A stretch of DNA of 64,000 bases from Tardiphaga sp. 709 (GTDB lineage Bacteria > Pseudomonadota > Alphaproteobacteria > Rhizobiales > Xanthobacteraceae). Shown here one piece after another: positions 24,139 through 42,223 of the stretch. Below the pieces are notes generated by a model. The model had not been told where the DNA came from. It saw only the letters and a program-made list of their open reading frames with translations, and ran no database searches. The first letter of the stretch is position 1; every line of letters starts with the position of its first letter. Location of the stretch: contig NZ_CP135529.1 in the NCBI RefSeq assembly GCF_032401055.1, forward strand, positions 3,594,501 to 3,658,500. Reading direction: 5' to 3'. A program made the translations under genes and the position numbers.

Positions 24139-24676
24139 ATCCCGCATTGCCGCCCGGCTCATGGTCGTCGCCACCTTGGCGGCGCTGACAGCCGGCTGCT
24201 TCCAGCCGATGTATGCCGAGCGCAATGATGGCAAGCCCGGCCTGCGCGAGAAGCTGCAGGGCGTCGAAGTTCCGCCATTGGAATATCCCAATGCATCACC
24301 GCAGGCCCGCGTCGGTGTGGCGATCCGCAACGCGCTGATGTTCAAGATGTATGGCAGTGCCACCGGCCTGCCGCCGACCTATCAGCTGAAGATCCGCTTC
24401 AATCCGAGCCGGACCTCGCTGATCGTCGATCCGAATACCGCGCTGCCGACCAGCGAGAATTACGGTATCGACGCGACCTATGGTCTGATCGAGATCGCCA
24501 CCGGCAAGCAGGTCCTGACCGGCAGCACCTTCTCCCGCGTCACCTACGACATCCCCGGCCAGCTGCAGCGCTTTGCCCGCGCCCGCGCCTATCGGGACGC
24601 TGAAGACCGCGCCGCGGCCGAGATCGCCGACAACATCAATACCCGGCTGGCGTCGTTCTTCTACGCCGGCACCTAA
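24125..24676 (+). CDS. lptE: LPS-assembly lipoprotein LptE
   Basis: The 183-residue protein begins with a lipoprotein signal peptide and lipobox LTAGC (Cys near residue 24). The body shows the LptE/RlpB pattern, including [17 protein letters not shown] and [14 protein letters not shown] followed by [20 protein letters not shown]. LptE plugs the LptD barrel and helps insert lipopolysaccharide in the outer membrane. The gene sits between leuS and holA, as in many proteobacteria. Confidence 0.9.
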
Positions 24677-24685
24677 GCACGCCGC

Positions 24686-25714
24686 GTGGTTGCGCTTCGC
24701 GGAAAAGATATCGACACGTTCCTGGCCAGGCCGGATGCCGGCCGGCCCATTATCCTGCTTTACGGAGCTGATGCCGGACTCGTGCGCGAACGCGCCGACG
24801 CGCTGATGAAATCCGCGGTCGACGATCCCAACGATCCATTTTCGCTGGTTCGCATGGACGGCGACGATCTCGCTGCCGAACCGTCCCGGCTCGTCGAAGA
24901 GGCGATGACAGTGCCATTGTTCGGCGGGCGCCGCGCGATCCGAGTCCGCGCGGGCTCGAAGAATTTTTCCAGCGGCGTCGATACGCTCGCCGACTCCGAC
25001 ATCAAGGACTGCCGCATCGTCATCGAGGCCGGCGAGCTCAGGCCGGAATCGCCTTTGCGGAAAGTTTGCGAGAAGGCCAGGACAGCGGTGGCCATCGCCT
25101 GTTACCCGGACACCGAGCGCGATCTCGCAAAGCTTATCGACGAAGAACTCCGCGTCTCCAATCTCCGCATGGCGCCGGATGCGCGCGCGACACTGATGTC
25201 GCTGCTTGGCGGTGATCGGCAAGCGTCGCGTAATGAACTCCGCAAGCTGACGCTCTATGCGCATGGCACCGGCGAAGTCACGCTCGACGATGTGATGGCC
25301 GTCGTTGCCGACGCGTCCGAACTGAAGATCGATCCGATCGTCGATGGCGCCTTTGCCGGAAATCCCGCCGCGGTGGAGGTCGAGTTCAACAAGGCGATGA
25401 TCGCCGGGACTTACCCGGGCATGATCATGATGGCTGCGCAGCGCCAGGCCGCACTGCTGCACAAAGCCAGCCTGCTGGTAGAGGCCGGCAGCTCTGCGTC
25501 ATCCGCTGTCGAGAGCGGATTTCCGCGGCTGCATTTCTCACGCAAGGGAACGGTGGAAGCGGCGCTGCGCAATTTCTCAGCGCAGCGACTGGTGACTATT
25601 ATCGACCAGCTCGCGGTCGCCGCGCTCGATGTCCGCAAACAAAACGCCCTCGGCGCGGTGATCGCACAGAGGGCGTTGATGTCGATTGCCGTGAATGCAA
25701 GGCGGCGCGGTTAG
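24686..25714 (+). CDS. holA: DNA polymerase III subunit delta
   Basis: The 342-residue protein matches HolA: PIILLYGADAGLVRERADAL near the start, DDPFSLVRMDGDDL-like text around residue 50 (here DPNDPFSLVRMDGDDLA), ELRKLTLYAHGTGEVTLDDV in the middle and the C-terminal helical collar. It is the clamp-loader subunit that opens the beta clamp. The start is GTG 24686, nine bases after the lptE stop. Its stop overlaps that of parB, encoded on the other strand. Confidence 0.93.
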   Translation: MVALRGKDIDTFLARPDAGRPIILLYGADAGLVRERADALMKSAVDDPNDPFSLVRMDGDDLAAEPSRLVEEAMTVPLFGGRRAIRVRAGSKNFSSGVDTLADSDIKDCRIVIEAGELRPESPLRKVCEKARTAVAIACYPDTERDLAKLIDEELRVSNLRMAPDARATLMSLLGGDRQASRNELRKLTLYAHGTGEVTLDDVMAVVADASELKIDPIVDGAFAGNPAAVEVEFNKAMIAGTYPGMIMMAAQRQAALLHKASLLVEAGSSASSAVESGFPRLHFSRKGTVEAALRNFSAQRLVTIIDQLAVAALDVRKQNALGAVIAQRALMSIAVNARRRG

Positions 25715-26601
25715 CTTTCCGAATCCAGCCGCTTCAGAATTTCGTCGAGCTGATCGAGATCACGATACTTGATGATCACGGTGCCGCCGGGATCGCGGTG
25801 ATCCACCGACACCTTCAGCCCGAGCACGTCGCTGACCCGCTTTTCGAGCGCGATCGTGTCTGCATCTTTCGCCGCCTTGGGAGACGACGTACGCGGCTTC
25901 TGCGGCGCGCGTTCCGGCACGCCCTCTTCATGCGCGAGTGCTTCGGTCTGACGAACGTTCAGTCCCTCGGCGATGATCCGCTTCGCGGCGCTCGACGCAT
26001 CCGGCAGGTTGATCAGCGCGCGGGCGTGACCGTTGGACAACTGACCCGACGCGATCAGGCCCTGCACGTCCTCCGGCAGCTTGGTGAGACGCATCATGTT
26101 GGCTACATGGCTGCGGCTCTTGCCGACGATCTTCGCGATTTCATCCTGACTGTGTTTGTAGGTCTCGGCGAGTGCGTGATAGCCCTGTGCCTCTTCCATC
26201 GCATTGAGATCTTCGCGCTGGACGTTCTCGATGATCGCGATTTCCATCGCGGCCGAATCCGTCACGTCGAGCGGCACGATCGGCACTTCATGCAGACCGG
26301 CGATCTGCGACGCACGCCAACGGCGCTCACCGGCGATGATCTCGAAGCGATCGTTCGAGCCCTTCACCGGCCGCACCACGATCGGCTGGATCACACCATG
26401 CTGCTTGATCGATGCCGCAAGTTCGCTGAGCTCCGCATCCGCAAAGGCCCGCCGCGGGTTGCGCGGATTGGCCTTGAGAAATTCGATAGGCACCTTGCGT
26501 TGATTGCGCGAAGGACGCTCGACATGCGCGGCTTCGCCGCCGACATCGCCGATCAGACTTGCAAGACCGCGGCCTAACCGCGAACGCGCTTCATCGGCCA
26601 T
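25711..26601 (-). CDS. parB: chromosome partitioning protein ParB
   Basis: The 296-residue protein opens with the ParA-activating peptide RLGRGLASLIGD. The CTPase domain follows with PNPRNPRRAF-like text (here ANPRNPRRAFADAE) and the GERRWRAS box, which contacts CTP. Next is the helix-turn-helix (KSRSHVANMMRLTKLPEDVQ). A Lys/Pro-rich linker leads to the dimerisation domain at the C-terminus. ParB loads at parS, four candidate copies of which lie 1.6-4.6 kb upstream. ATG 26601 fits the family; an ATG 21 bases further up is possible. Confidence 0.95.
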   Translation of the reverse strand: MADEARSRLGRGLASLIGDVGGEAAHVERPSRNQRKVPIEFLKANPRNPRRAFADAELSELAASIKQHGVIQPIVVRPVKGSNDRFEIIAGERRWRASQIAGLHEVPIVPLDVTDSAAMEIAIIENVQREDLNAMEEAQGYHALAETYKHSQDEIAKIVGKSRSHVANMMRLTKLPEDVQGLIASGQLSNGHARALINLPDASSAAKRIIAEGLNVRQTEALAHEEGVPERAPQKPRTSSPKAAKDADTIALEKRVSDVLGLKVSVDHRDPGGTVIIKYRDLDQLDEILKRLDSES

Positions 26602-26712
26602 CGCCAATCCCTTCGAACTCATGCGGGTTACTCCGTACTCAAACTAGAAATTCAGACCGCAGGATCGGTGGCGCAAAGCTCACCGCATCCCGAAAACTAT
26701 CGACGCAAGATT

Positions 26713-27579
26713 TCAGTGAGCAGTACGCAGATCGCGCTCGCGCTGGATCACTTCGGTCGCGAGCCGCAAGTAGGCTTCGGAGCCCGAACACTTCAGATCA
26801 TAGACGAGCACTGGCTTACCGTAGGACGGTGCTTCCGAAATGCGGACGTTGCGCGGGATCATGGTCTCGTAAACCTTGCTGCCCATGAACTCGCGCACGT
26901 CGGCAACGACCTGGTTCGACAGGTTGTTGCGTGCGTCGAACATGGTCATCACGATGCCATGGATCGACAGGTTCGGATTCAGCGTCGAGCGCACCTGCTC
27001 CACCGTCTGCAGCAGCTGTGACAAACCTTCGAGCGCGAAGAACTCACACTGCAGGGGAACGAGGATCGCATCCGACGCAGCCATCGCATTGACCGTGAGA
27101 AGATTGAGCGACGGCGGACAATCGATCAGCACATAAGTGTAGTCGGAGCCCGGCGAGACATTGTTGTTCAATTCGCCAATCGCATCGCGCAGCCGGAAGG
27201 CGCGGTCGCGGGCCGAACCAAGTTCGAGCTCAAGGCCCGAGAGATCCATGGTCGAGGCAGCGATATGCAGACGCGGCACGGCGGTGACCACAACGGCATC
27301 GCGCAGCGGCGCTTCGCCGATCAGGACGTCATAGGTCGAGCAGTTGCGATTGCGACGATCGATGCCGAGACCGGTGGACGCATTGCCTTGCGGATCGAGA
27401 TCGACGATCAGCACGCGCTCGCCGATTGCGGCAAGTGCGGTGCCGAGATTAATCGCAGTCGTGGTCTTGCCGACGCCGCCCTTCTGGTTAGCCAGCGCCA
27501 GGATGCGCGGGTGTCCAGGCACCGTATTTGACGCATGCTCTTGATATTCCTGATCAATTACGGTCATTGGCGTGGCCAT
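26713..27579 (-). CDS. parA: chromosome partitioning ATPase ParA/Soj
   Basis: The 288-residue protein carries the deviant Walker A KGGVGKTTTAINLG, switch I DLDPQGNAST and Walker B YVLIDCPPSLNLLTVNAM. PRNVRISEAPSYGKPVLVYD is the conserved C-terminal block. A short N-terminal tail of about 24 residues precedes the Walker strand. It moves ParB-parS complexes during origin segregation. Its first 26 bases overlap the end of rsmG, and parB follows 111 bp downstream. Confidence 0.96.
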   Translation of the reverse strand: MATPMTVIDQEYQEHASNTVPGHPRILALANQKGGVGKTTTAINLGTALAAIGERVLIVDLDPQGNASTGLGIDRRNRNCSTYDVLIGEAPLRDAVVVTAVPRLHIAASTMDLSGLELELGSARDRAFRLRDAIGELNNNVSPGSDYTYVLIDCPPSLNLLTVNAMAASDAILVPLQCEFFALEGLSQLLQTVEQVRSTLNPNLSIHGIVMTMFDARNNLSNQVVADVREFMGSKVYETMIPRNVRISEAPSYGKPVLVYDLKCSGSEAYLRLATEVIQRERDLRTAH

Positions 27580-28267
27580 TTTGGTTTGCGGACGGGGTCA
27601 ATCGCTCGATCCGGTCGAGTTCGACGATCCAGCCTTGTCCGCCGGTCAGGCTGGCATGCAGGCGCGGGCTTATATTCCAATATCTAGTAGCTTCGGTCAA
27701 TTCCGATTCTACATCTTGACCCTTGAGAAATAAGGCTTTTGTGCCTGGCTTCTTCATTAGGGGCTCGGCGAAACCGATAACGATATGTAACGACGCAACG
27801 GCACGCGCGGTGATGCAATCGACATGCTCGGGAAATCTATCCACATTATCCCCGATGTCAGCGAGGTGAACTGTACCCGGGGCTTGTGTCACCCGTAGCG
27901 CTTCGCGCAGGAACGCCGCCTTCTTGGCGTTGCGCTCGACGAGATGAACATGCCCACTTCCGACGTCACCCATGGCACAGGCCAGAACGACACCGGGAAA
28001 GCCTCCGCCGCTGCCGAAGTCGAGCCAGATCTTTGCATCCGGCGCGAGGTTCAGAAGCTGCAGCGAATCCGAGATATGGCGCGTCCAGAGATTTGGAAGC
28101 GTGGCCGGCGAAATCAGATTTGTCTTGGCCTGCCACTGCAGCAACAGGTCAACATAGCGATCGAGCCTGTCTTCCGTTTCACGTGAAACAGGTGTCAACC
28201 GCAGGGCCACAGCCTTGTCGGCATCGAGCCGGGGTACGGGAGCAGCTTGCTGGGATCGTTGGGCCAT
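27554..28267 (-). CDS. rsmG: 16S rRNA (guanine527-N7)-methyltransferase
   Basis: The 237-residue protein has the RsmG/GidB SAM-binding core: WLDFGSGGGFPGVVLAC, HLVERNAKKAAFLREALR, CITARAVASLHIVIGFAEPL and LFLKGQD. It methylates G527 of 16S rRNA. An alternative ATG 30 bases upstream (28297) is possible. A parS site, CGTTTCACGTGAAACA, is embedded in the coding sequence at 28175-28190, encoding the PVSRETE segment. Confidence 0.93.
   Translation of the reverse strand: MAQRSQQAAPVPRLDADKAVALRLTPVSRETEDRLDRYVDLLLQWQAKTNLISPATLPNLWTRHISDSLQLLNLAPDAKIWLDFGSGGGFPGVVLACAMGDVGSGHVHLVERNAKKAAFLREALRVTQAPGTVHLADIGDNVDRFPEHVDCITARAVASLHIVIGFAEPLMKKPGTKALFLKGQDVESELTEATRYWNISPRLHASLTGGQGWIVELDRIERLTPSANQNGHANDRN
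28175..28190. promoter_or_regulatory. parS site 1, inside rsmG
   Basis: CGTTTCACGTGAAACA matches the near-universal parS consensus TGTTTCACGTGAAACA at 15 of 16 positions, with only the outer T changed. It lies within rsmG, 1.6 kb from parB. It is a strong ParB-loading candidate. Confidence 0.92.
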
Positions 28268-28369
28268 TAGATTGTCTGAAAAGCTGTTGGGACCCATCCA
28301 TACTCTGAGTCCATTGCTGCCGCTATCAAATTGCCGGATCGAGGCGACGAATCCGGGCCGGAATTGCCG

Positions 28370-28902
28370 ATGAATGAGCGACTGACCTATCAGGAGGCCC
28401 TTCGACGCACCGGCCTGCTCGGCATCCTCGAGCCGTTCGACCCGCGTATGATCGGCACGCTGCCGCTCGGCGTCGCCCGGCCCGATAGTGACATCGATAT
28501 CGTCTGTTGCGCCGCCGACCTGTCCACGGCTGTCGGACTTGTCTGGAGCACTTCGGCGAGTCCGAGAGCTTTGCCATTTATCAATGGTCGGCCAAAGGCC
28601 GACCGGTGATCGCGACATTCGAGGCGTATGGATGGCCGTTCGAGATCTTTGTCAGCTCGACTCCCGTACAGGATCAAACTGGCTGGCGGCACTTCGAGGT
28701 CGAGAAGCGACTGCTGACCCTGGGTGGACCCACCTTCCACACCGCCATCTGCGCGTTACGGGCCGAGGGAGTGAAGACAGAGCCTGCTTTTGCGCGTGCT
28801 CTCAAGCTTGAACGTGATCCTTATACTGCCCTGTACAACTTGTTCAGCACCTCTGATGACCAGCTGAATGCAGTCCTGAGGGCGCAAGGCTTTGCAGTCT
28901 AG
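28370..28902 (+). pseudogene. DUF4269 protein gene with a one-base frameshift
   Basis: Two frames together give one DUF4269 protein of about 177 residues. The first frame gives MIGTLPLGVARPDSDIDIVC, and the next frame resumes at EHFGESESFAIYQWSAKG and runs through WPFEIFVSSTPVQDQTGWRH and GVKTEPAFARALKLERDPY. The join lies at the GG of 28545-28546 (TCTGGAGCAC). Restoring a third G yields VWEHFGESESF, which reads through smoothly. The family resembles nucleotidyltransferases (the DSDID motif), but its role is unknown. Either the gene is broken or the base count is wrong. It is a plus-strand insertion between rsmG and mnmG. Confidence 0.8.
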
Positions 28903-28987
28903 AGGATTCAGGACAGTGAGTTGACCAGGATCAATGCGAGCGGGACGAGTCCTGCCTCCAATGAATCATCGTTGGAGGCAGATGACC

Positions 28988-29176
28988 ATGAGTGCGATCG
29001 TACGGCTTTTCCTGATGCTGGCAGCGCCCATCGCTGCGCTATTCGTCTCGCGTGACGCACTCAATTTTGACGTGGTCCAGACAATCGTTGCTGTAATTCT
29101 TTTTACAGTGGCCGTCGCAGCTGTTGCTTTCTGGCCCCGCCGTCCAGCGAAGCCACCTTCAACAGAGCCGCGCTGA
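28988..29176 (+). CDS. small two-helix membrane protein
   Basis: The predicted 62-residue protein has two hydrophobic segments, VRLFLMLAAPIAALFVS and TIVAVILFTVAVAAVAFW, and ends in a basic, Pro-rich tail. GGAGG lies nine bases before the ATG at 28988, a good ribosome-binding site. I do not recognise the family. The stop is 11 bp before parS site 2, between the DUF4269 gene and the convergent end of mnmG. Confidence 0.6.
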   Translation: MSAIVRLFLMLAAPIAALFVSRDALNFDVVQTIVAVILFTVAVAAVAFWPRRPAKPPSTEPR

Positions 29177-29187
29177 TTTCGGCTTCC

Positions 29188-29203
29188 TGTTTCACGTGAA
29201 ACA
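29188..29203. promoter_or_regulatory. parS site 2, between small ORF and mnmG
   Basis: TGTTTCACGTGAAACA is an exact, fully palindromic parS consensus. It lies in the gap between the convergent stop codons of the small membrane protein and mnmG. Confidence 0.96.
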
Positions 29204-29208
29204 ACCAA

Positions 29209-31079
29209 CTAGGCCAAAGCAGCCTTCGGCTTACGTGCTTCGCGGCGGAGATAGGCCGCGAGAATGGCCAGGGCGGCCGGGGTCATACCATCCAGACGTC
29301 CGGCCTGCCCCACTGTGTGCGGAAGCGCGGCTTTAAGCTTCGCCCGGGCCTCATTGGACAGTCCGGGGACCACATCATAGTCGACATCCACCAGCGAGAG
29401 ACCCTCGTCACGGCGAAAAGCCTCCACATCCGCGGTCTGACGCTTCAGATAGACATCATATTTGGCGTCGATCTCGATATGGGTGCCGATCGCTGGGTCA
29501 ATGGCCGACAATTCTGGCCAGATCCCGGTCACGGTGGCCCATTCGGTCTCGGGGTAGGACAGGAGATCGAAGGCGGAGCGGCGCTGACCGTCATGATTGA
29601 GCGCCAGACCGTGCTTAGCCGCCCCGTTAGGAGTGATCGAGAGCGCCTGGGTCAGGGCCTTACCGGCAGTGAGGGCTTCCATCTTGGCGCCATGGCGGAC
29701 CGAACGGGCGCTGCCGACACATCCCAGGCTGATACCTTTATCGGTCAGGCGCTGATCGGCGTTGTCGGCACGCAGCGTAAGCCGGTATTCCGCCCGTGAC
29801 GTGAACATCCGATAGGGCTCGGTAATCCCGCGAGTGACCAGATCGTCGATCATCACGCCCAGATAGCCGTCAGCTCGATCGAACACGATCAACTGGCTAC
29901 CGCTCGCGGCCAGGGCCGCATTCAGACCGGCGACGAGACCTGGGCGGCGGCTTCTTCGTATCCGGTGGTGCCATTGATCTGCCCGGCCAGAAACAGGCCG
30001 GGGACGCGCTTGGTCTGCAGGGTCGGATCGAGTTCGCGGGGATCGACATGGTCATATTCGATCGCATAGCCCGGGCGGACCATTCGGACCCGCTCGAGAC
30101 CGGGGATCGAGGACAGGATCGCAGCCTGAACGTCCTCGGGCAGTGAGGTAGAGATACCGTTGGGATAGACCGTGGAGTCATCGAGGCCTTCCGGCTCCAG
30201 GAAGATCTGGTGGCCATCGCGATCGCCGAAACGGACGATCTTGTCCTCGATGGACGGGCAATAGCGCGGCCCCGAGCTCTTGATCTGGCCGGAATACATC
30301 GGCGAGCGATGCACATTGGCCCGGATCACCTCATGGGTCGCCGGTGTGGTGCGCGTGATGCCGCACTGAATCTGCGGATTGGTGATCCGATCGGTCATCA
30401 CCGAAAACGGCTCCGGCGGATCGTCGGCGGACTGCATCTCAACGGCGGCCCAGTCTATGGTGGTCCCATCGAGCCGCGGTGGCGTGCCGGTCTTGAGCCG
30501 TCCGAGGGTAAAGCCGACGCGCTCGAACGCCTTGGACAGGCCGAGTGCGGGAGCTTCATCGATCCGGCCAGCGGGCCAGTTCTTCTCGCCGAGATGGATC
30601 AGGCCGCGCAGAAAGGTCCCAGTGGTGATGACCACCGATCCGGCGGAGAGTTCGCGGCCATCGGCCAGACGGATGCCGGTGACCCGGCCATTTGACATCA
30701 GCAGGTCGTCGGCCTCGCCTTCAACCACACTCAGATTCTCGGTCGCCACGATCGCCGCCTGCATCGCTGCAGCGTAAAGCTTGCGGTCCGCCTGGGTACG
30801 CGGGCCACGAACGGCCGGACCCTTCCTGCGGTTGAGCATGCGGAACTGGATCCCGCTGGCATCAGCGACGCGTCCCATCAACCCGTCCAGCGCATCCACC
30901 TCGCGAACGAGATGGCCCTTACCGAGACCGCCGATGGCTGGGTTGCAGGACATCGCGCCAACGGTCGCAAACTGATGCGTGACCAATGCCGTCCGCGCGC
31001 CCATGCGCGCAGCACCAGCCGCGGCCTCGCAGCCGGCATGGCCTCCCCCGATTACGATGACGTCAAACTTGTCCTGCAT
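29209..31079 (-). pseudogene. mnmG: tRNA uridine-5-carboxymethylaminomethyl(34) synthesis enzyme MnmG, frameshifted
   Basis: The N-terminal part (from ATG 31079) has the FAD motif [20 protein letters not shown] and continues to [18 protein letters not shown]. It then runs into VSSPV and a stop. The next frame supplies [20 protein letters not shown] and the whole C-terminal domain to the natural end. One base is missing: CAGGTCTC should be CAGGGTCTC, at plus-strand position 29939-29940. With it, a normal protein of about 623 residues results. MnmG works with MnmE, encoded upstream, on wobble uridines. Its loss is normally deleterious, so a sequence error is a serious possibility. An earlier ATG at 31127 adds 16 residues. 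Confidence 0.9.
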
Positions 31080-31132
31080 GGCCGCAGCTTCTAGCGCGGG
31101 TGCCGCTGGGATTGAAGAGAAATCCACAGACA

Positions 31133-31148
31133 GTGTTCACGTGAAACA
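31133..31148. promoter_or_regulatory. degenerate parS-like site 3
   Basis: GTGTTCACGTGAAACA keeps the right half and the core of parS but has three changes in the outer left half. It lies 54 bp upstream of the mnmG start and 34 bp from exact site 4. It may be a weak ParB site or a decayed copy. Confidence 0.5.
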
Positions 31149-31182
31149 ACAGACGTCCTTTAAGAGGATCAGAGAGCCGGAC

Positions 31183-31198
31183 TGTTTCACGTGAAACA
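31183..31198. promoter_or_regulatory. parS site 4, mnmG-mnmE interval
   Basis: TGTTTCACGTGAAACA is an exact parS palindrome, about 100 bp upstream of the mnmG start. Further up, at 31335-31344, TGTTCCACGT matches one parS half with no partner half. The interval from about 31310 to the end of mnmE is conspicuously AT-rich for this genome. Confidence 0.95.
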
Positions 31199-31390
31199 CA
31201 CTCTTGTTTAGCCGCGATGGCGCGGAGCATCTTACAACAAAGCAGTCCAGTCGAGCCAGCCGCCCGCAAACCTAGCCTTTGGATTGCATCGCTCCGCTCG
31301 TAATGACAGCTGAAATTTCTACGCTTTTGCCGAGTGTTCCACGTTATATTGATTTTATATTCACTTCATTAAATAATGAACAAAGAAATA

Positions 31391-32725
31391 TTACTTACCT
31401 ATACAAAAATCTCGAAAGATGCTATCAAGGACATCTTCCACATCGACACGTCCCAGCAACCGCCCCAATTGCTGCGCTGCAGCACGCATATCTTCGGCAA
31501 CGAATTCTTCGCCTTGCCCAGCCGATGTTGCAGCATGCTGCAGCAAATCCGACGTGCTGCGCAGCAAAAGACGCTGCCGCTCCCGGGTAATCAGCCCAGC
31601 CTCACCGCTCCCGAAGTATCGACCGGCAAAATCGACAAGCAGGGCTAACAGCTGTGCGAGGCCATCACCGCGCTCTGCAGAGATGGCGATCAACAGATCT
31701 GGCCCGGCCGACGCAGTCTGGACCAGATCGACCTTGTTCCGGACCACCCAGACCGGCGTCTCAGATTCCGTCAGCCATTGTTCTGGATTGGACGCCTCCG
31801 CGCTGGAGTCGACCAGCCACAGCACCAGATCCGCTTCGGCCGCCCGAGCCCGCGCCCGGCGCACCCCCTCCTCCTCTACCGGATCGGCCGTCTCGCGAAT
31901 GCCGGCGGTGTCGATGATAGTTACCGGATAACCGTCGAGGTCGAGCTGCACCTCGATGACGTCCCGGGTGGTGCCGGCATGCGGTGAAACAATTGCCACG
32001 TCGCGCCGGGCGAGCTGATTCATCAGCGTCGATTTGCCGACATTGGGCTGGCCCGCGATCGCCACCAACAGACCGTCGCGCAACCGCTCGCTTCGACCCT
32101 GCGCCGCCAGCACTCCCTCGATCTCTCGATGCAGCGCCGATGCTTTCGCCAAAGCCGGCGCCAGCAATTCGGCGGATACGTCGCCCTCGTCGGAAAAATC
32201 GATACCGACTTCGACCAGAGCCAGCGCCTCGATGATCTGCTGTCGCCAGTTGCGCGCCTTGTCGCCGACTAGTCCCTTGAGCTGCCGCAGCGCCTGGCGC
32301 CGCTGCCGGTCGGTATCGGCATGGATCAGATCATCAAGGCCTTCCGCCTCGGTCAGGTCGAGCTTGCCGTTCTCGAACGCACGGCGCGTAAATTCGCCGG
32401 GCTCCGCCGGCCGCAAGCCGTCGATAGCGCCCAGCGCCACGAACAAGGAGGCCAGTACCGCGCGCCCGCCGTGGATATGAAATTCGGCGACATCTTCCCC
32501 AGTCACGCTGGCCGGTCCCGGAAACCACAGCACCACCGCATCGTCGATCGGGCCGAGCTTCTCGTCTGACAACAGAACATGGGTCGCCAACCGCGGCGCC
32601 GGCAGTCTCTTCGCCAGACGCGTCAGCGCCTCACCTGCCTGGGGACCTGACACGCGGACAATCGCAATCGCCGTCGGCGGGCGGCCGGAGGACAAGGCGT
32701 AGATCGTCTGGTCGCGCGGATGCAT
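31391..32725 (-). CDS. mnmE: tRNA modification GTPase MnmE (TrmE)
   Basis: The 444-residue protein begins with the formyl-THF-binding domain ([20 protein letters not shown], then [20 protein letters not shown]). The G domain has G1 [13 protein letters not shown]3 DTAGIRET and G4 NKVD. It ends with the C-terminal CIGK motif carrying the functional Cys. MnmE and MnmG form the complex that modifies wobble U34 of certain tRNAs. The gene is intact, in contrast to mnmG. Confidence 0.95.
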
Positions 32726-32791
32726 CGCCTATTTGCCGATGGGGGTGGCGGGATGCAATGGGGATTCTGACTCAGAAATCCCACCCACACC

Positions 32792-32840
32792 GTCATTCTG
32801 GGCCGAGCGAAGCGCTTGATGCAACCGAACCCAGAACGAC
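32792..32840. repeat. dispersed imperfect palindrome, copy 1
   Basis: GTCATTCTGGG at the left and CCCAGAACGAC at the right pair along 11 bp with one G-T. In between, AGCGAAGCGCT forms a smaller inner repeat. The ends resemble those of the element at 42231-42375 (GTCATTCCGGG / GGGGAACGAC), suggesting one intergenic repeat family. Confidence 0.55.
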
Positions 32841-32860
32841 AGTAAGTGACGGCGCACCAA

Positions 32861-32898
32861 ACAAAAAGAGCGCCGATGCTTTCGCTACGGCGCTCTTT
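32861..32898 (-). terminator. rho-independent terminator of rho
   Basis: On the minus strand AAAGAGCGCCG and CGGCGCTCTTT form an 11-bp stem with a 12-base loop, followed by TTGTTTGG. It lies 37 bp after the rho stop. The A-rich side also gives a T-run on the plus strand, so it could work both ways. Confidence 0.85.
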
Positions 32899-32935
32899 GA
32901 AATCCTGAAGCTGCTCGCTCGAACAGCCCTGAAAC

Positions 32936-34201
32936 TTACGTATTCATTGAATCGAAGAATTCCGAGTTGTTCTTCGTGTTGCGGAGCTTGTCGAGCAGGA
33001 AGTCGATGGCGTCCATCGTACCCATCGGATTGAGGATCCGGCGGAGCACATACATCTTCTTGAGAAGCTGCGGATCGGTGATGAGCTCTTCCTTGCGGGT
33101 GCCCGAGCGCGAGATATCGATCGCCGGGAAGGTCCGCTTGTCCGAGACCTTGCGGTCCAGGATGAGTTCGGAGTTACCGGTGCCCTTGAATTCTTCGAAG
33201 ATGACTTCGTCCATGCGGCTGCCAGTATCGACCAGCGCGGTGGCGATGATAGTCAGCGAACCGCCTTCTTCCACATTACGGGCGGCACCGAAGAAGCGCT
33301 TCGGCCGCTGCAGCGCGTTGGCGTCAACGCCGCCGGTCAGCACCTTGCCGGACGACGGGACGACGGTGTTGTACGCGCGGCCGAGGCGGGTGATCGAATC
33401 CAGGAGGATGACCACATCGCGGCCGTGCTCGACCAGGCGCTTTGCCTTCTCGATCACCATTTCGGCGACCTGCACGTGACGCACAGCCGGCTCGTCGAAG
33501 GTCGAAGAGACGACTTCACCCTTCACCGAACGCTGCATGTCCGTGACTTCTTCCGGACGTTCGTCGATCAGAAGAACGATCAGATAGCATTCCGGATGAT
33601 TGGCCGTGATCGAATGCGCGATATTCTGCATCAGCACGGTCTTACCCGTGCGCGGCGGCGCTACGATCAGTGCGCGCTGGCCCTTGCCAATCGGCGCGAC
33701 GATGTCGATAACGCGCGCCGAGAGATCGCGGCGGGTCGAATCTTCCAGCTCGAGGCGGAAGCGCTGATCCGGGAATAGCGGGGTGAGATTGTCGAAATTG
33801 ACCTTGTGCTTCGACTTCTCCGGATCTTCGAAATTGAGCGTATTGACCTTCAGCAGAGCGAAATAGCGTTCGCCTTCCTTCGGGCTGCGAATATGGCCTT
33901 CGACCGTATCGCCAGTGCGCAGGCCAAAACGGCGAATCTGCGAGGGCGAGACGTAAATATCGTCCGGACCCGGCAGGTAGTTCGCATCGGGTGACCGCAA
34001 GAAGCCGAAACCGTCGGAGAGAACCTCGACGACGCCTTCGCCGATGATGTCGGTTTCCTTGATCGCCAGCTGCTTCAAGCTCGCGAACATCAGCTCCTGC
34101 TTGCGCATGGTGCTGGCATTTTCGACCCCGAGCTCTTCCGCAAACGAGACAAGCTCGGCTGGCGTCTTGGCCTTGAGGTCCTGGAGTTTCATTTCCCGCA
34201 T
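32936..34201 (-). CDS. rho: transcription termination factor Rho
   Basis: At 421 residues it is a full-length Rho. The N-terminal RNA-binding part has [20 protein letters not shown] and [20 protein letters not shown]. The RecA-type motor has Walker A APPRTGKT, followed by the Q-loop ([20 protein letters not shown]) and Walker [17 protein letters not shown], then [21 protein letters not shown] 274-bp leader separates it from hemJ, which could allow the autogenous control known for rho in other bacteria. CCGGTT/AACCGG at 34352-34373 is a small inverted repeat in that leader. Confidence 0.97.
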
Positions 34202-34475
34202 TGGGAGGGATCCTGTGGAAAGTCGGGGAGGGAGCGCGAGGTAGCCAAGACGGATGCGGACGCTGGAAAAGATCAGGAAAGTCCGCAGGTCTCTGGCCAG
34301 GAAGTCTTGAGCGAGGAAGGTGCTGAAGGAGCTTCAAACCTGATGCGGTGGCCGGTTCAAAAAGCGAAACCGGTACAAACCACATCCGCCTGCGTGGGGT
34401 GGGATGACGCGAATATAGAAAATCGCAGGGTGTCGCGCAAGGAGCCGAAACGGCGGTTGTGATGACAAATTTGGC

Positions 34476-34898
34476 CTAGAACGGCTTCACGATCACCAAA
34501 ATGACGATCAGGATCATCAAAATTGTCGGTACCTCGTTGATAATTCGATAGAATTTCGAAGTCCGCGTATTATTGTCCTGAGCAAAATCACGCACCCGGG
34601 CACTCAGGAAGCCGTGAACGCCAGACATCAGCAGCACCAGCGTCAGTTTGGCGTGAAACCAGCCCGAGCTGAACCAGTGACCGGCCCAGGCGAGATACAG
34701 GCCGAGGATCCAGGTGGCGATCATCGCCGGATTGATGATCGCCTTGAGCAGGCGACGCTCCATCACTTTGAAGGTTTCGGATTGCTTCGAGCCGATCTCT
34801 GCGTCGCAGTGATAGACGAACAGTCTCGGCAGATAGAGCATGCCCGCCATCCACGAGATGACGGCGATCACATGCAGCGCCTTGGCCCATTCATACAT
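34476..34898 (-). CDS. hemJ: protoporphyrinogen oxidase HemJ
   Basis: The 140-residue protein has four hydrophobic helices and the HemJ signature: KALHVIAVISWMAGMLYLPR with the conserved His near residue 9, then MERRLLKAIINPAMIATWIL and FHAKLTLVLLMSGVHGFL. HemJ makes protoporphyrin IX in the inner membrane. The gene is the last on the minus strand before the proposed replication origin. A hemE gene, which commonly accompanies hemJ here in relatives, is not present. Confidence 0.92.
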   Translation of the reverse strand: MYEWAKALHVIAVISWMAGMLYLPRLFVYHCDAEIGSKQSETFKVMERRLLKAIINPAMIATWILGLYLAWAGHWFSSGWFHAKLTLVLLMSGVHGFLSARVRDFAQDNNTRTSKFYRIINEVPTILMILIVILVIVKPF

Positions 34899-35367
34899 TC
34901 GAAAGTTCTTTCCAGCATCACTGCGTCACATCGCACGTGCCGAGACCGGAACACTTCACCGGAAAGCCGCGTTGCAGGACACGCCGATACAGAGCGGATC
35001 ACCGCACTATCCGCAAGCCATCCTTCTCTTAAATAATATTTATAGAATCTTAGGTTTGAGTCTAAGTGACAGTGGATTTCAGCCGCCCAAAACAATCCCA
35101 GAACTGTCCCACGCTTATGCACATCGCCGCGTGATTTTCCGACAGCCGCTCGCATGCAAGTTCGATATGCAGCGCAAAGGCTTACCGTCGCTGTGCACTG
35201 GATTATCCCAAGACAAACCTAGATAACCCCATTATCATTCCAGATAGCCTCAGAGTTTTTCCTTTTCATGAGGCCTGTGAAGAAAAAACCGAGTTATCCC
35301 GGGTCCGCCGAGGCGGTGGTCGATATCCCGGAAAAGCTCCACAGCGATTCACAGGACATACACGATC
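34899..35367. other. putative chromosomal replication origin oriC
   Basis: This 469-bp interval has no gene. It holds an AT-rich stretch at about 35027-35052 (TTAAATAATATTTATAG). There is a perfect DnaA box TTATGCACA at 35115-35123 and TTATCCC at 35203 and 35294. GANTC (CcrM) sites lie at 35045, 35058 and 35346, and TTAA-N7-TTAT at 35029-35043 is one base from a CtrA box. CTTAG/CTAAG at 35049-35066 forms a hairpin. The genes to the left (rho, hemJ, mnmE, mnmG, rsmG, parA, parB) point left and those to the right (ppsR, maf, coaE, dnaQ) point right. The same neighbourhood contains oriC in Caulobacter and rhizobia. The boundaries are those of the interval. Confidence 0.75.
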
Positions 35368-36210
35368 ATGGTGCCCACCACCGGCAGCTATTTTCATCTC
35401 CATCTGGTTTCCGATTCGACCGGTGAGACGCTGATCACGGTGGCCCGCGCCGTCGCGGCGCAATACGCGAATGTCACGCCGGTCGAGCATGTCTACCCGC
35501 TTGTGCGGAGTCAGAAGCAGCTTGATCGGGTGCTTTCCGAGATCGAGGAAGCGCCGGGCATCGTTCTCTTTACGCTGCTGGAAAAAGATCTGGTCGGCCG
35601 ACTGGAAGCCAAGTGCCAGGAGATCAACAGCCCGAGCCTGTCGATCATCGGGCCGGTGATGCAACTCTTTCAGGCCTATCTCGGTGCGTCGACCACCGGC
35701 CGTGTCGGCGCACAACACACGTTGAACGCCGAATACTTCAAGCGCATCGATGCGCTGAATTATTCGATGATGCATGACGACGGCCAGCATGTGGAAGGCC
35801 TCGAAGAAGCGGACGTGGTTCTGGTCGGCGTGTCGCGCACATCGAAGACGCCAACATCGATCTATCTTGCCAATCGTGGTGTGCGCACGGCCAATGTGCC
35901 GCTCGTCCCCGGCATCCCCATTCCCCATCAGCTTGAGACGTTGAAAAATCCGCTAGTGGTCAGCCTGCACGCGACGCCGGAGCGCTTGATTCAGATCCGC
36001 CAGAACCGGCTTCTCAGCATTGGCAGCGATACGGCCAATGACGATTATATCGATCGCCAGTCGGTCACGGACGAAGTCACCTATGCGCGCAAGCTTAGCG
36101 CCAAATACGGCTGGGCTTTGTTGGAAGTGACACGTCGCTCCATCGAAGAAACCGCGGCAGCCATTATGAAACTGCTTGCCGATCGCCAGCGTCAGAGGAT
36201 GTCCGAATGA
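35368..36210 (+). CDS. ppsR: pyruvate, phosphate dikinase regulatory protein (DUF299)
   Basis: The 280-residue protein has the DUF299/PPSR layout: [20 protein letters not shown] at the start, [20 protein letters not shown], the P-loop-like [16 protein letters not shown] and a C-terminal [13 protein letters not shown]. The family is a bifunctional kinase and pyrophosphorylase that switches PEP synthase or pyruvate phosphate dikinase off and on, using ADP and phosphate. It is the first gene to the right of the proposed origin and overlaps maf by four bases. Confidence 0.93.
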
Positions 36211-36815
36211 CCATTTGGCGCGGCGTGCAACCGCTGATCCTGGCGTCGCAGAGTTTGGCGCGTCGTGAGTTGCTGGCGAATGCTGGCATTACGTTTGATG
36301 CGATGCCTGCAGATATCGACGAGCGCGGCATCCAGCAGAAATCCGGGTTGAAGGCGCCGGGCGAGATCGCAGCCTTGCTCGCCGAGCGGAAGGCGGCCTT
36401 TATCTCGCTGCGTCATCCCGGCCGCTATGTTCTTGGCGCCGATCAAACCCTGGCACTGGGCGATCGGATGTTCAGCAAACCCGCCGGACGCGAACAGGCG
36501 GCCGAACAACTTGCGATCCTCGCCGGCCGGACCCACGAATTGCATTCAGCGCTTGCCGTCGTTTGCGATGGTGCGACGTTGTTCTCCAATGTCTCCGTGG
36601 CGCATATGACCATGCGCAAGCTGGATGATGTGGCGATCAATGCCTATCTGGACGCTGTGGGCGACAAGGTGACGACGAGTGTCGGCGCCTATCAGCTTGA
36701 GGGGGTGGGTGTGCATCTGTTCGAGCTGATCGAAGGCGATCACTTCACCATTCTCGGTCTGCCACTACTGCCGCTGCTGAGTTTCCTGCGCGGCGAAGAG
36801 ATGATCGCGATCTGA
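36207..36815 (+). CDS. maf: Maf-like nucleotide pyrophosphatase
   Basis: The 202-residue protein has the Maf fold: [40 protein letters not shown] with the catalytic Asp, and [20 protein letters not shown]. The family removes modified or non-canonical nucleotides; subfamily cannot be fixed, though YceF-like is likely. It overlaps ppsR in ATGA. In several alphaproteobacteria aroE sits between maf and coaE; here coaE follows after 16 bp. Confidence 0.9.
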
Positions 36816-36831
36816 TTTTGATGAGGACTTG

Positions 36832-37431
36832 ATGCGCGTATTGGGGCTGACCGGTTCGATCGGAATGGGGAAATCCACCACGGCGAAGTTGTTCATGGAA
36901 GCCGGCGTGCCGGTCTATGACGCTGACGCCACCGTGCACATGATCTATGAGGGCGAAGCTGCACCGCTGATCGAGGCGGCGTTTCCCGGAACCACGGTGA
37001 ATGGCAAGGTCGATCGCGCGAAGCTATCGCCGCTGGTCGTGCACGATGCCGCCGCGATGAAGAAGCTCGAGCAGATCGTGCATCCGCTGCTCGGCGCCTA
37101 TCACAGAAAATTCCTGGATGATGCAGAGAAGTCGGGTGCGCCGGTGGCAGTGGTCGATGTGCCCCTGCTCTATGAAACCGGCGGAGAAAAGCGGGTCGAT
37201 GCGGTGGTCGTCGTGTCCACCAATCCCGAGCAGCAGCGCGAGCGCATCCTGGCGCGCGAGGGTATGACGGCCGAGAAACTCGACGCCATTCTGGCGCGGC
37301 AGCTGCCTGATGCCGAAAAGCGCAAGCGCGCCGACTTCGTGGTGGATACATCGAACGGATTGGACCCCGTGCGGGAGCGGATCCGTGAAATTCTCTCCGA
37401 GGCTGTTAAGATGCCACAACGGCGGCCCTGA
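36832..37431 (+). CDS. coaE: dephospho-CoA kinase
   Basis: The 199-residue protein starts [20 protein letters not shown], whose P-loop GSIGMGKST is diagnostic. [20 protein letters not shown] and [20 protein letters not shown] are the other conserved blocks. It performs the last step of coenzyme A synthesis. ATG 36832 is the natural start; a TTG just upstream is unlikely. Confidence 0.95.
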
Positions 37432-37463
37432 CCGTCCCCTGATTCGACAACCGGCTTAGTTTG

Positions 37464-38165
37464 ATGCGTGAAATCGTCATGGATACCGAAACCACGGGCC
37501 TCGATCCCCTCCGGGGCGATCGGCTGGTGGAAATCGGTTGCCTCGAAATCTTCAACCGGATGCCGACCGGCCAGACTTTCCATGTCTACGTTAATCCCGA
37601 GCGCGACATGCCTCAGGAAGCGTTCAACGTGCACGGGCTGTCGGCCGAGTTCCTGTCGACCAAGCCGCTGTTTCACGAAGTGGTCGACGACTTTATGGCT
37701 TTCATCGGCGATTCGCCGTTGGTGATTCACAACGGCATGTTCGACCTCGGCTTCATCAATGCCGAACTCGATCGCATCAAGCGCCCGCCGGTGCCGCGCG
37801 AGCGTCTCGTTGACACGCTGCTGCTGGCGCGGCGCAAGCATCCCGGTGTGTCGAACAAGCTCGACGATCTCTGCGCCCGCTATGCGATCGACAATTCCCG
37901 CCGTACCAAGCACGGCGCGCTGCTCGACTCTGAATTGCTGGCGGAAGTCTATATCGACCTCATTGGCGCCCGGCAGTCGCAACTGATCCTGGCGGACGAA
38001 GCGCCTGCGCAGCGCACCGGCAGCATCAATGACGCCCCGCGCCGCCAGCGCGAGATCGCACTTGCGCCGCGCGTGACCGAAGCTGATCGCGCCGAGCACC
38101 GCGCCTTTGTCGCAACGATGGGCGAGAAGGCAATCTGGAACGAATTTCTGGGAGCGCCGTCGTAA
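37464..38165 (+). CDS. dnaQ: DNA polymerase III subunit epsilon
   Basis: The 233-residue proofreading exonuclease shows the DEDDh motifs. ExoI is VMDTETTGLDPLRGD, ExoII is VIHNGMFDLGFINAEL, and ExoIII is KHGALLDSELLAEVYI with the general-base His and the last Asp. The C-terminal tail should hold the polymerase-binding region. It proofreads replication errors as part of the core polymerase. The gene lies 3 kb from the proposed origin, between coaE and the convergent secB. Confidence 0.95.
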   Translation: MREIVMDTETTGLDPLRGDRLVEIGCLEIFNRMPTGQTFHVYVNPERDMPQEAFNVHGLSAEFLSTKPLFHEVVDDFMAFIGDSPLVIHNGMFDLGFINAELDRIKRPPVPRERLVDTLLLARRKHPGVSNKLDDLCARYAIDNSRRTKHGALLDSELLAEVYIDLIGARQSQLILADEAPAQRTGSINDAPRRQREIALAPRVTEADRAEHRAFVATMGEKAIWNEFLGAPS

Positions 38166-38172
38166 AACGACA

Positions 38173-38195
38173 ATGGCCGGGACAAGCCCGGCCAT
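38173..38195. terminator. palindrome between convergent dnaQ and secB
   Basis: ATGGCCGGG, loop ACAAG, CCCGGCCAT is a perfect 9-bp stem eight bases after the dnaQ stop. This ATGGCCGGGACAAGCCCGGC text is a common dispersed intergenic palindrome in Bradyrhizobium-like genomes. It can end transcription from both sides. Confidence 0.6.
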
Positions 38196-38226
38196 GACGT
38201 AAGCTTATTGTTTGGAGCACCCGAAC

Positions 38227-38705
38227 TTAGTTTGCCGGACCAGCGTCGGCCTGAGCCTGGCGTTCCAGGTTCTGCCGGTACAGACCGACGAAATCCACGG
38301 GATCGAGCATCAGCGGCGGGAAGCCGCCATCGCGCACCGCGGTAGCGATGATTTCGCGCGCGAACGGGAACAGCAGGCGCGGGCATTCGATCATGACCAG
38401 CGGGTGCAGGTTTTCCTGCGGCACGTTGACGATGCGGAATACGCCGGCATAGGCCAGTTCGAACGAGAACAGCACCGAGCCGGCGTTCTCGGCCTTGCCC
38501 TCGACCGACAGCGTCACTTCATATTCGCTCTCGGAGAGATTGTTGGCGCCGACATTGATCTGGATATTGATGTTCGGCTGCTGGGCCTGCGGTGCCAGCG
38601 AGGCTGGAGCGTTCGGGTTTTCGAACGACAGGTCTTTGGTGTACTGCGCCAGTACATTGAGCTGGGGGGTGACTGCTCCGGAGGGGTGCCGTTGCCGTTT
38701 GCCAT
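38227..38705 (-). pseudogene. secB: protein-export chaperone SecB, frameshifted near the N-terminus
   Basis: From ATG 38705 the reading [13 protein letters not shown] is the normal SecB beginning, but it then continues into nonsense. The neighbouring frame carries [40 protein letters not shown], the central [15 protein letters not shown] and the C-terminal [12 protein letters not shown]. The two join at a run of six G (plus strand 38664-38669). A seventh would give the expected reading [10 protein letters not shown] and a protein of about 159 residues, the family length. SecB keeps preproteins unfolded for SecA. A homopolymer error is likely, but true loss is possible. Confidence 0.88.
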
Positions 38706-39208
38706 CGAAAATTCTCCTGAAGCGCTGCCGGGCGGGTGGAACCGGTTCGTCGCGGGTATCCGCGCGAACGGTCGAATGAGGTGATCGCGGCGAGTGGCTA
38801 TCATAGGCCTGCGGCACTCGACAAGGATGCCACGCCGCAACCTGGACGCTAGAAAATCGCTGGTTTGACCCACCGCTTGGGCATCCAGGTGCAAAACCGG
38901 TCATATTCGCCCCGAATTCACGTTAAATGACTGAAAGTGCGGGTTTTCCTCGTTCGATCCGATTTCCTCTGACGGACAAACGCGCTAGAATTTATCGAAA
39001 CGGTTGCGGTCGAGGCTGCCGGTGCGAAGGCCGCTTTGCCGCAGCCGGACACGATGGCGCGCCATTGGCTGGGCTTAGTTTCATGTCTACATGGAGCAGG
39101 TTCGCCCATGACGCGATCTCCCGACCCTCTGGGAGCCGATTTCAGACCGCGATGGGCGGCATAGTCTTCCGCCGGGCATGCCCGGCACCGATCAGAAAGC
39201 AATAAGAC
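38706..39208. other. gene-free interval between secB and the Tim44-like gene
   Basis: This 503-bp interval separates the divergent starts of secB and the Tim44-like gene. I find no protein with family resemblance, RNA gene or repeat in it. It should hold the promoters of both genes. GTG 39209 has no strong ribosome-binding site close by; AATAAGA precedes it. Confidence 0.5.
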
Positions 39209-39904
39209 GTGGACATTTACACCATCATCTTCCTGGCACTGGCGGTCTTCATTTTCATCCGCCTGCGCAACGTGCTCGGACAGCGCACCGGCGAAGAGCG
39301 TCCGCCCTTCGACCGTGCCGCGCGTGATGCTCTGCCGCCCGAAGGCAATGTCGTGCCGATGCCTGGCGGTCCCATCGATCAGGCTGCGCCGGCACCGGCC
39401 GCCGACGTCTCTCCCGCCGAGCGCTGGAAGGGCATCACCGAACCGGGCACGCCGCTCGCCGCCGGTCTCGATGCCATCGTCGACCAGGATTCGTCGTTCG
39501 ATCCGCGCCATTTCATCACCGGCGCGAAGGGCGCCTATGAGATGATCGTGTTGGCCTTTGCCAATGGCGATCGTCGGTCGCTGAAGGATCTGCTGTCATC
39601 GGAAGTGTTCGACTCGTTCGACGCCGTCATCAAGGACCGCGAGAAGAACGAGCAGAAGACCGAGACCCGTTTCGTTTCGATCGACAAGGCCGAACTCGTC
39701 GGCGCTGAGGTGCGCGATCGCGCGGCGCAGCTCACCGTGCGTTTCGTGTCGCAGATGATCTCGGTGACGCGCGACAAGACCGGCGCTGTGGTCGACGGCA
39801 ATGCCGACAAGGTCAGCGACATCACCGACGTGTGGACCTTTGCCCGCGACATCACTTCGCGCGATCCGAATTGGAAGCTGGTTGGCACCGGCAGCGTGCA
39901 ATAA
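39209..39904 (+). CDS. Tim44/TimA domain protein
   Basis: The 231-residue protein has an N-terminal hydrophobic helix (IYTIIFLALAVFIFIRL), an acidic Pro/Ala linker, and a C-terminal Tim44-like domain (GAKGAYEMIVLAFANGDRRS to the end; EVRDRAAQLTVRFVSQMISV, DVWTFARDITSRDPNWKLVG). Alphaproteobacterial Tim44-like proteins (TimA) are inner-membrane relatives of the mitochondrial import motor anchor; their bacterial role is only partly known. The start is GTG 39209. It precedes mltA and smr, a conserved set. Confidence 0.9.
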   Translation: MDIYTIIFLALAVFIFIRLRNVLGQRTGEERPPFDRAARDALPPEGNVVPMPGGPIDQAAPAPAADVSPAERWKGITEPGTPLAAGLDAIVDQDSSFDPRHFITGAKGAYEMIVLAFANGDRRSLKDLLSSEVFDSFDAVIKDREKNEQKTETRFVSIDKAELVGAEVRDRAAQLTVRFVSQMISVTRDKTGAVVDGNADKVSDITDVWTFARDITSRDPNWKLVGTGSVQ

Positions 39905-41633: not shown

Positions 41634-42223
41634 AGCGTTCACGTCCACCGCAACTCATCGATCCCGTGGCGCCGCGCCGTCGCCGCGTGCTGAGCGAAGA
41701 GGAGCGCGCGCTGTGGGAACTGGTCGCCAAACAGGTCAAGCCGCTGCGCAAGAAGCGCGTGGTGAAGCCGGAGCCTGCGGAAGACGCGCCAACGCTTCTG
41801 AAAGTCGCGGCGCCCAAGAAGATGACCTCGGCACCGCCGGGAGTCCTCAAAACCGCAAAGCCTGCGCCGCCGCCCGTGCCGCCTCTGGCGCCGCTCGGCC
41901 GTCGCGAACGTTCGCAGCTCTCGCGCGGTCGCAAAGAGATCGATGCTCGGATCGATCTGCACGGGATGACGCAGACGCGCGCGCATCACGCGCTGTCCGC
42001 CTTCCTGCACCGCGCCAGCCATGACGGCATGACTTTCGTGCTGGTCATCACCGGCAAGGGCCGCACGACCGGCCCGGAATCCGAGCGCGGCGTCCTGCGC
42101 CGCCAGGTACCGCTTTGGCTGGGCCTGCCGGAATTTCGGTCGCTGGTGGTGGGATTCGAGGAAGCGCATATCGGGCACGGCGGCGCCGGTGCGCTGTATG
42201 TGCGGATCAGGCGGGCGCGGTAG
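41630..42223 (+). CDS. Smr/MutS2-domain protein
   Basis: The 197-residue protein has a basic, Pro-rich N-terminal half and a C-terminal Smr domain: ARIDLHGMTQTRAHHALSAF, FVLVITGKGRTT and EAHIGHGGAGALYVRIRR. The LDHG-type and GKG motifs are those of the Smr nuclease family, which acts on nucleic acids including collided-ribosome mRNA. The exact substrate here is unknown. The start ATG overlaps the mltA stop by four bases. Confidence 0.9.
   Translation: MKRSRPPQLIDPVAPRRRRVLSEEERALWELVAKQVKPLRKKRVVKPEPAEDAPTLLKVAAPKKMTSAPPGVLKTAKPAPPPVPPLAPLGRRERSQLSRGRKEIDARIDLHGMTQTRAHHALSAFLHRASHDGMTFVLVITGKGRTTGPESERGVLRRQVPLWLGLPEFRSLVVGFEEAHIGHGGAGALYVRIRRAR

Follow-up and report, generated by a model that had tools for sequence, protein, structure and literature searches.

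In Escherichia coli, adenine-methylation (Dam) sites lie inside the unwinding region of the chromosomal origin, oriC. The sequence AGATCT in this origin has been described as forming ATP-DnaA boxes (PMC10225481). In Caulobacter crescentus, the origin (Cori) has been identified experimentally between hemE and a gene of the DUF299/COG1806 family (PMC1914354), and GANTC sites near it are hemimethylated in about 80% of cells (PMC3973325), so that the state of such sites reports replication. Within the same class, repABC origins are rich in GANTC (PMC6090056, PMC11514494); unlike the locus described below, these are RepC-dependent plasmid or chromid origins, and they are likened to it by description, not by sequence. 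For the Bradyrhizobiaceae, Ori-Finder (2008) placed the origins of ten sequenced members beside gidA and the GC switch, and those ten origins contain TGTTTCACGTGAAACA, taken as two DnaA boxes (PMC2275245). The Oligotropha genome was given an origin with the same box by the same tool (PMC3091675).

The stretch of DNA analysed here (the window; 64,000 nucleotides) covers positions 3594501-3658500 of contig 1 (6,259,763 bp) in the two-contig, 6.36 Mb genome of the soil bacterium Tardiphaga sp. 709. The initial annotation had pointed to a gap of 469 bp between hemJ (minus strand) and ppsR (plus strand) as the probable chromosomal origin, and a gap of that length was indeed found at 34899-35367. 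It is with high confidence predicted to be the DnaA-dependent origin of the main chromosome. The genes around it are as follows.

25711 to 26622, minus strand: parB, by profile match
26713 to 27579, minus strand: parA, by ParA-type ATPase domains, named also from the adjoining parB
27554 to 28618, minus strand: rsmG (gidB), by profile match
29209 to 31127, minus strand: mnmG (gidA), its match split between two frames, 29922-31127 and 29209-29892
31391 to 32725, minus strand: mnmE, by profile match
32936 to 34201, minus strand: rho, by profile match
34476 to 34898, minus strand: hemJ, the left flank (TIGR00701, E 2.9e-51)
34899 to 35367, no strand: the hemJ-ppsR gap, 469 bp, putative chromosomal oriC from gene frame, GC skew and conservation
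35368 to 36210, plus strand: ppsR, the right flank (NF003742, E 7e-102)
36207 to 36815, plus strand: maf, Maf models being the best matches, below their curated cut-offs
36829 to 37431, plus strand: coaE, by profile match
37461 to 38165, plus strand: dnaQ, by profile match
38227 to 38904, minus strand: secB, by profile match

The ppsR family is one that we take to be DUF299/COG1806. Genes had been said to point outward from the gap for several kb on both sides; this holds leftward up to parB (25711), whereas on the right the outward run stops at dnaQ (38165), because secB lies on the minus strand. The dnaA gene is 212 kb from the gap. A match to hemE is found about 1 Mb away, at C1:2620696-2621699, and is split over two frames. 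Frame splits thus occur in both mnmG (29209-31127) and hemE in one assembly, which suggests either indel errors in the assembly or real breaks.

The skew of the whole chromosome, a minimum of which elsewhere would by the initial annotation have spoken against this origin, was sampled in 20 stretches of 20 kb plus two parts of the window (22 pieces), and its sign switch falls inside the window. GC skew was negative in 11/11 pieces of a single run from 640 kb to the window's left part, and positive in 11/11 of a second run, which leads from the window's right part round the chromosome to 340 kb; its final piece, at 320 kb, has a value of only +0.003. All 13 stretches from 360 to 620 kb were negative, and the second sign switch lies between about 320 and 360 kb. 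A terminus exactly opposite, at 0.49 Mb, is ruled out by this second switch. A parS-like palindrome with one central mismatch occurs at G000:C1:491573-491588, a long way from the origin and some 130-170 kb from the skew-defined terminus.

Within 198.5 kb around the gap, the local GC-skew minimum is at window position 32672 (block bootstrap 95% interval 22976-39501), with a near-tied second minimum at 43501. The RY curve, with a minimum at 32640, agrees with the GC skew. In this 198.5-kb region, neither the AT curve nor the MK curve turns at the gap; the former has its extremes at window coordinates 60829 (maximum) and 141342 (minimum), and the latter peaks at 42105. The gap therefore lies at the GC-skew minimum at a resolution of about 17 kb; local skew is confounded with gene orientation. 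The bootstrap interval also holds the gaps beside mnmG, 4-6 kb away, so that skew alone cannot separate these candidates; their box content can.

The gap is richer in AT (49%) than the window (38%) and the 22 sampled chromosome pieces (37-41%), and the AT-rich tract reported within it takes the form of a 60-bp peak of 72% AT. The other motifs ascribed to the gap, namely TTATGCACA, two TTATCCC, three GANTC and TTAA-N7-TTAT, are all in place. The features are listed below, with counts from 52 aligned hemJ-ppsR gaps (30/31 Bradyrhizobium and 22 others including our own; locus L010 and loci with hemE on the left were left out), many of which come from closely related genomes, so that the counts are not independent.

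35020 to 35079, no strand: AT-rich block (72% AT), a candidate DNA unwinding element from its AT peak and conservation
35029 to 35043, plus strand: TTAA-N7-TTAT, previously labelled a CtrA box, one mismatch to the CtrA consensus
35044 to 35063, plus strand: AGAATCTTAGGTTTGAGTCT, the block of highest conservation, in which two GANTC (CcrM) sites start 13 bp from each other
35045 to 35049, plus strand: GANTC site 1, in AGANTCT; N is A in 17 and T in 35, other letters 52/52
35058 to 35062, plus strand: GANTC site 2; G, A, G 52/52, T 51/52, C 50/52
35072 to 35078, minus strand: GTGGATT; G, T, G in 52, 51 and 52 of 52; minus-strand AATCCAC, putatively a weak DnaA-box-like site
35115 to 35123, plus strand: predicted DnaA box TTATGCACA, with at most one mismatch at the same place in 47/52 genomes
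35203 to 35209, plus strand: TTATCCC motif 1; 35201-35215 conserved at 0.78
35276 to 35284, minus strand: predicted DnaA box TTCTTCACA, in the opposite direction, with at most one mismatch in 50/52 genomes
35294 to 35300, plus strand: TTATCCC motif 2; 35293-35307 conserved at 0.79
35338 to 35352, plus strand: TCCACAGCGATTCAC, a putative DnaA-box-like pair; second-best 15-bp window (0.87), with the third GANTC at 35346

The box TTATGCACA at 35115 is the sole perfect TTATNCACA of the 64-kb window. Allowing one mismatch, the whole window holds 10 DnaA boxes against 13.9 expected and hence no excess, so that a motif count from one genome proves little and the evidence lies in conservation. The 52 hemJ-ppsR gaps contain 108 boxes with at most one mismatch, compared with 13.6 in mononucleotide shuffles, and a perfect box is present in only 10/52. 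In gaps between hemE and ppsR, 14 boxes against 2.1 expected were found in the family (n=13), 41 against 4.5 in the order (n=19) and 84 against 10.3 in the class (n=26). DnaA boxes beyond chance are thus indicated by conservation and not by their number in our own window. A strict DnaA-trio (three or more [AT]A[AG] triplets no more than 16 bp 3' of a box with at most one or two mismatches) was found in 0/52 genomes, and no perfect parS was found in the 52 gaps. An Rfam search, of interest for a CcnA-like RNA as in Caulobacter-type origins, gave one chance match only, far below its cut-off.

The gene frame is also retained among relatives. The ppsR gene was found in 58/61 genomes (our own included) and in 99/143 genomes of a class sample; the loci read comprised 30 of 59 ppsR places, the long regions of 20 genomes (six outside those 30), the regions of 20 more genomes and 30 class-sample loci. 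In 20/20 relatives, hand-picked from 60 searched, rho and hemJ point to the left, and ppsR, maf, coaE and dnaQ to the right. The left neighbour is hemJ in our own genus, in some other genera of the family and in locus L097 of the order, and hemE in most other relatives, including 28/29 new class-sample loci with the order hemE-gap-ppsR; four loci (L010, L094, L102 and L108) have neither gene on the piece read. The gaps are 288-673 bp long when gene starts are estimated from alignments. In G030, a further genome of the family, the record starts about 420 bp upstream of ppsR.

With ppsR on one side and hemJ in place of hemE on the other, the strict label of a hemE/ppsR-type oriC fails while the position fits. 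Other genera of the same family keep hemE at the gap, so that the hemJ flank reads as a derived loss of one flank, and the locus represents an established type of origin, one flank of which has changed. The chromosomal origin of Sinorhizobium meliloti presumably has the same gene order. Taking ppsR as COG1806, the gap shares with Cori, as far as the available descriptions go, the right flank, an AT-rich stretch and two oppositely directed main DnaA boxes accompanied by weak ones (PMC1914354, PMC10797057, PMC8959179). The two differ in that Cori is flanked by hemE, where Tardiphaga has hemJ. The conserved paired GANTC block of the present gap may be a further difference.

Cori also differs in its five CtrA sites, as no perfect TTAA-N7-TTAA is present in the 52 hemJ-ppsR gaps. 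Matches of the one-mismatch type, TTAA-N7-TTAT, number 5 in the window against 1.6 expected (1/100 shuffles reaches 5). The gaps hold 33 CtrA-like sites with at most one mismatch, in 29/52 genomes, against 5.4 expected from a mononucleotide shuffle that is lenient for AT-rich blocks, and the AT-rich block may explain some of them. The near-match at 35029 is kept in 6/17 Tardiphaga and 0/30 Bradyrhizobium. For S. meliloti, the origin is described as lacking CtrA motifs and as unbound by CtrA (PMC4433202).

An ordinary divergent promoter region could also lie at a skew switch, with the origin elsewhere nearby; the gap does part divergent genes and is AT-rich. Such a region would hardly account for the conservation of the DnaA boxes, nor for the persistence of the gap in a position known experimentally in Caulobacter, and this explanation is considered extremely improbable. 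The proposal that the gap is the chromosomal origin is instead supported by the skew, the gene frame, the conserved DnaA boxes and the conserved AT block.

A second placement of the origin follows the published prediction (PMC2275245), repeated for Oligotropha (PMC3091675), in which it adjoins mnmG (gidA) and TGTTTCACG is a family-specific DnaA box. That spot, in the mnmE-mnmG gap or the mnmG-rsmG gap, is about 4 kb (about 4-6 kb) from the hemJ-ppsR gap and shares its skew switch. The sites concerned are listed below; the parS cluster reported 4-7 kb from the hemJ-ppsR gap was recovered as two perfect copies and one with a single mismatch between 28175 and 31198.

28175 to 28190, no strand: parS with 1 mismatch, by motif search
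29188 to 29203, no strand: perfect parS on the other side of mnmG, by motif search
31128 to 31390, no strand: the mnmE-mnmG gap, with parS and no perfect DnaA box, one of two gaps fitting the Ori-Finder rule
31133 to 31148, no strand: parS-like site with 3 mismatches, by motif search
31183 to 31198, no strand: perfect parS, by motif search

The mnmE-mnmG gap is within the skew interval. The window's AT maximum over 60 bp (83%, 31344-31403) lies at its edge and not in the hemJ-ppsR gap; moreover, one Bradyrhizobium chromosome record starts in the mnmE-mnmG gap. These 60 bp cover the mnmE end of the parS-bearing gap and are weakly conserved there in a 30-genome alignment. The Bradyrhizobium record (G482) starts 236 bp before the end of mnmE, and its first 240 bp (L304; G482:C1:1-240) hold three perfect parS copies. 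The palindrome TGTTTCACGTGAAACA is, however, parS, the site of ParB, and the proposed DnaA box TGTTTCACG is half of it (PMC7022226); parA and parB adjoin. In addition, a fork leaving an origin beside mnmG would meet mnmE, rho and hemJ head-on. In 30 genomes (our own, 13/20 of the long-region loci and 16/20 of another set of loci), the mnmE-mnmG gap has no perfect DnaA box and one with at most one mismatch, against 4.9 in shuffles, and perfect parS in 29/30; the mnmG-rsmG stretch of the same genomes has no perfect box, two with at most one mismatch against 4.5 in shuffles, and perfect parS in 12/30. Among the six best windows of the mnmE-mnmG gap, only two parS copies exceed 0.5 in conservation, and mean column conservation is 0.22 in these 30 genomes; the hemJ-ppsR gap reaches 0.63, though over another and larger set of 52. 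An origin beside mnmG is accordingly judged highly improbable. As the Ori-Finder box is half of parS and the mnmG gaps hold parS without a perfect DnaA box, a centromere was most likely taken for the origin, to judge from these motifs. No published correction of this call was recognised in the available open-access texts, and the available part of Ori-Finder 2022 contains no word beginning "Bradyrhizobi". As far as searched, the case against the gidA-side call is new, as is the conserved CcrM-site element.

That element, a pair of GANTC sites within the AT-rich block, is the best-conserved part of the hemJ-ppsR gap in the 52 genomes, and the best 15-bp window of the alignment is TCTTAGGTTTGAGTC at 35048 (conservation 0.985). 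The block pattern occurs once in our own genome. Its strict GATTC form was found in 9/297 genomes of the order, our own subclade carrying GAATC instead; the corrected pattern was found in at least 120 stretches, and among the 80 matches listed, 60 fall into the hemJ-side gap and the other 20 come from records with neither hemJ nor ppsR on the stretch, so that the pattern by itself is not confined to this gap. Of 24 permuted pentamers, GANTC shows the highest observed/expected ratio in both sets (2.0 and 1.9). Its density is 1.83 per kb in a sample of our own genome, 8.9 in the hemJ-ppsR gap and 1.8-6.8 in other gaps of the loci. The observed/expected ratio of the mnmE-rho gap (1.59) is close to that of the hemJ-ppsR gap (1.70), and our own subclade alone has 15 GANTC in the hemJ-ppsR gap against 11.7 in shuffles. 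GANTC is thus richer in intergenic DNA generally, which makes the bare count weak evidence; the argument is carried by position and by the AGANTCT context.

This context was followed in 58 other Alphaproteobacteria, over stretches reaching 15 bp into hemE and 120 bp outward from its start. AGANTCT was found there 38 times, in 33/58 genomes, against 1.67 expected by mononucleotide shuffle (23-fold), with A at the centre in 17 sites, G in 12, T in 7 and C in 2. AGATCT has 0 sites and AGANNTCT has 3 in the same stretches; among eleven other palindromes with a free centre, TGANTCA, itself a GANTC, ranks first at 2.5-fold. By group, AGANTCT lies beside hemE in 11/13 genomes of the family, 13/19 of the order and 9/26 of the class, and in the 135 bp beside ppsR in 1, 1 and 0, respectively; it is thus common and not universal. 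The same 58 stretches contain AGANNNTCT at 14 sites (6.6-fold) and AGANNNNTCT at 8 (4.1-fold), perhaps as overlapping or tandem GANTC arrangements. On the hemE side of one locus (L067, genome G020), the two GANTC sites together make up a perfect 14-bp palindrome, AGAGTCTAGACTCT.

Our own genome encodes one RAMA-domain methylase like CcrM, and a search for such a CcrM in 14 control genomes gave a match in Caulobacter only. The match is strong in 55/58 genomes, and of the other three (G034, G453 and G469) two are without AGANTCT and one has it, so that CcrM presence varies too little for its absence to be tested against AGANTCT. Methylation by CcrM may control initiation at this origin, and the block could serve either methylation-gated unwinding or a promoter.

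The promoter role would make the GANTC block a CcrM/GcrA-controlled promoter of hemJ (or hemE) inside the origin, and it bears on the function of the block, its odds being counted apart from those of the origin's place. GANTC sites act in GcrA-dependent promoters in Caulobacter (PMC8116508), minus-strand TTAGAC and TATAAA are seen by eye 15 bp apart over the block, and AGANTCT is near hemE in genomes with hemE on the left (median 19 bp). Nevertheless, no sigma-70-like minus-strand match was found in a scan of spacers of 16-18 bp, which would miss one of 15, the block overlaps the AT peak of the gap, and genomes flanked by hemJ keep it at a median of 138.5 bp from that gene. Since the block is kept beside either hemE or hemJ and at differing distances, it has no fixed partner gene or spacing, and the promoter role is regarded as possible though rather doubtful. 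Still more speculative, and unlikely on present evidence, is that AGANTCT is a widespread alphaproteobacterial origin element, the CcrM counterpart of the Dam-site AGATCT boxes of E. coli, at which DnaA or a reader of hemimethylation would act in one methylation state only. The two origins are alike in having adenine-methylation sites within the unwinding region (here a predicted one), and unlike in that Dam acts in E. coli, where CcrM and GANTC would serve here, AGATCT being absent from the 58 hemE-side stretches. No description of an AGANTCT origin element was found in the available open-access texts, which do describe GANTC at repABC origins.

If the hemJ-ppsR gap is the origin, DnaA would bind the conserved pair of inverted boxes at 35115 and 35276, as well as weaker boxes around them. 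Bound DnaA would then open the AT-rich block beside hemJ (35020-35079), and forks would move off both ways. Methylation of the two GANTC sites, full before the fork and half after it until, late in the cycle, CcrM acts, may mark the origin as used, and the parABS cluster on the left would be the centromere that segregates new origins and not the origin itself.

This placement would correct the origin position given by a common tool for the family to which Bradyrhizobium, Rhodopseudomonas and Nitrobacter belong, and would also explain the error, a centromere having been read as DnaA boxes. A sharp, conserved CcrM-site element in the putative unwinding region makes the link between CcrM and initiation testable by single-site changes. 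If AGANTCT is indeed an origin element, CcrM would gate the origin directly, also in orders without CtrA binding at the origin.
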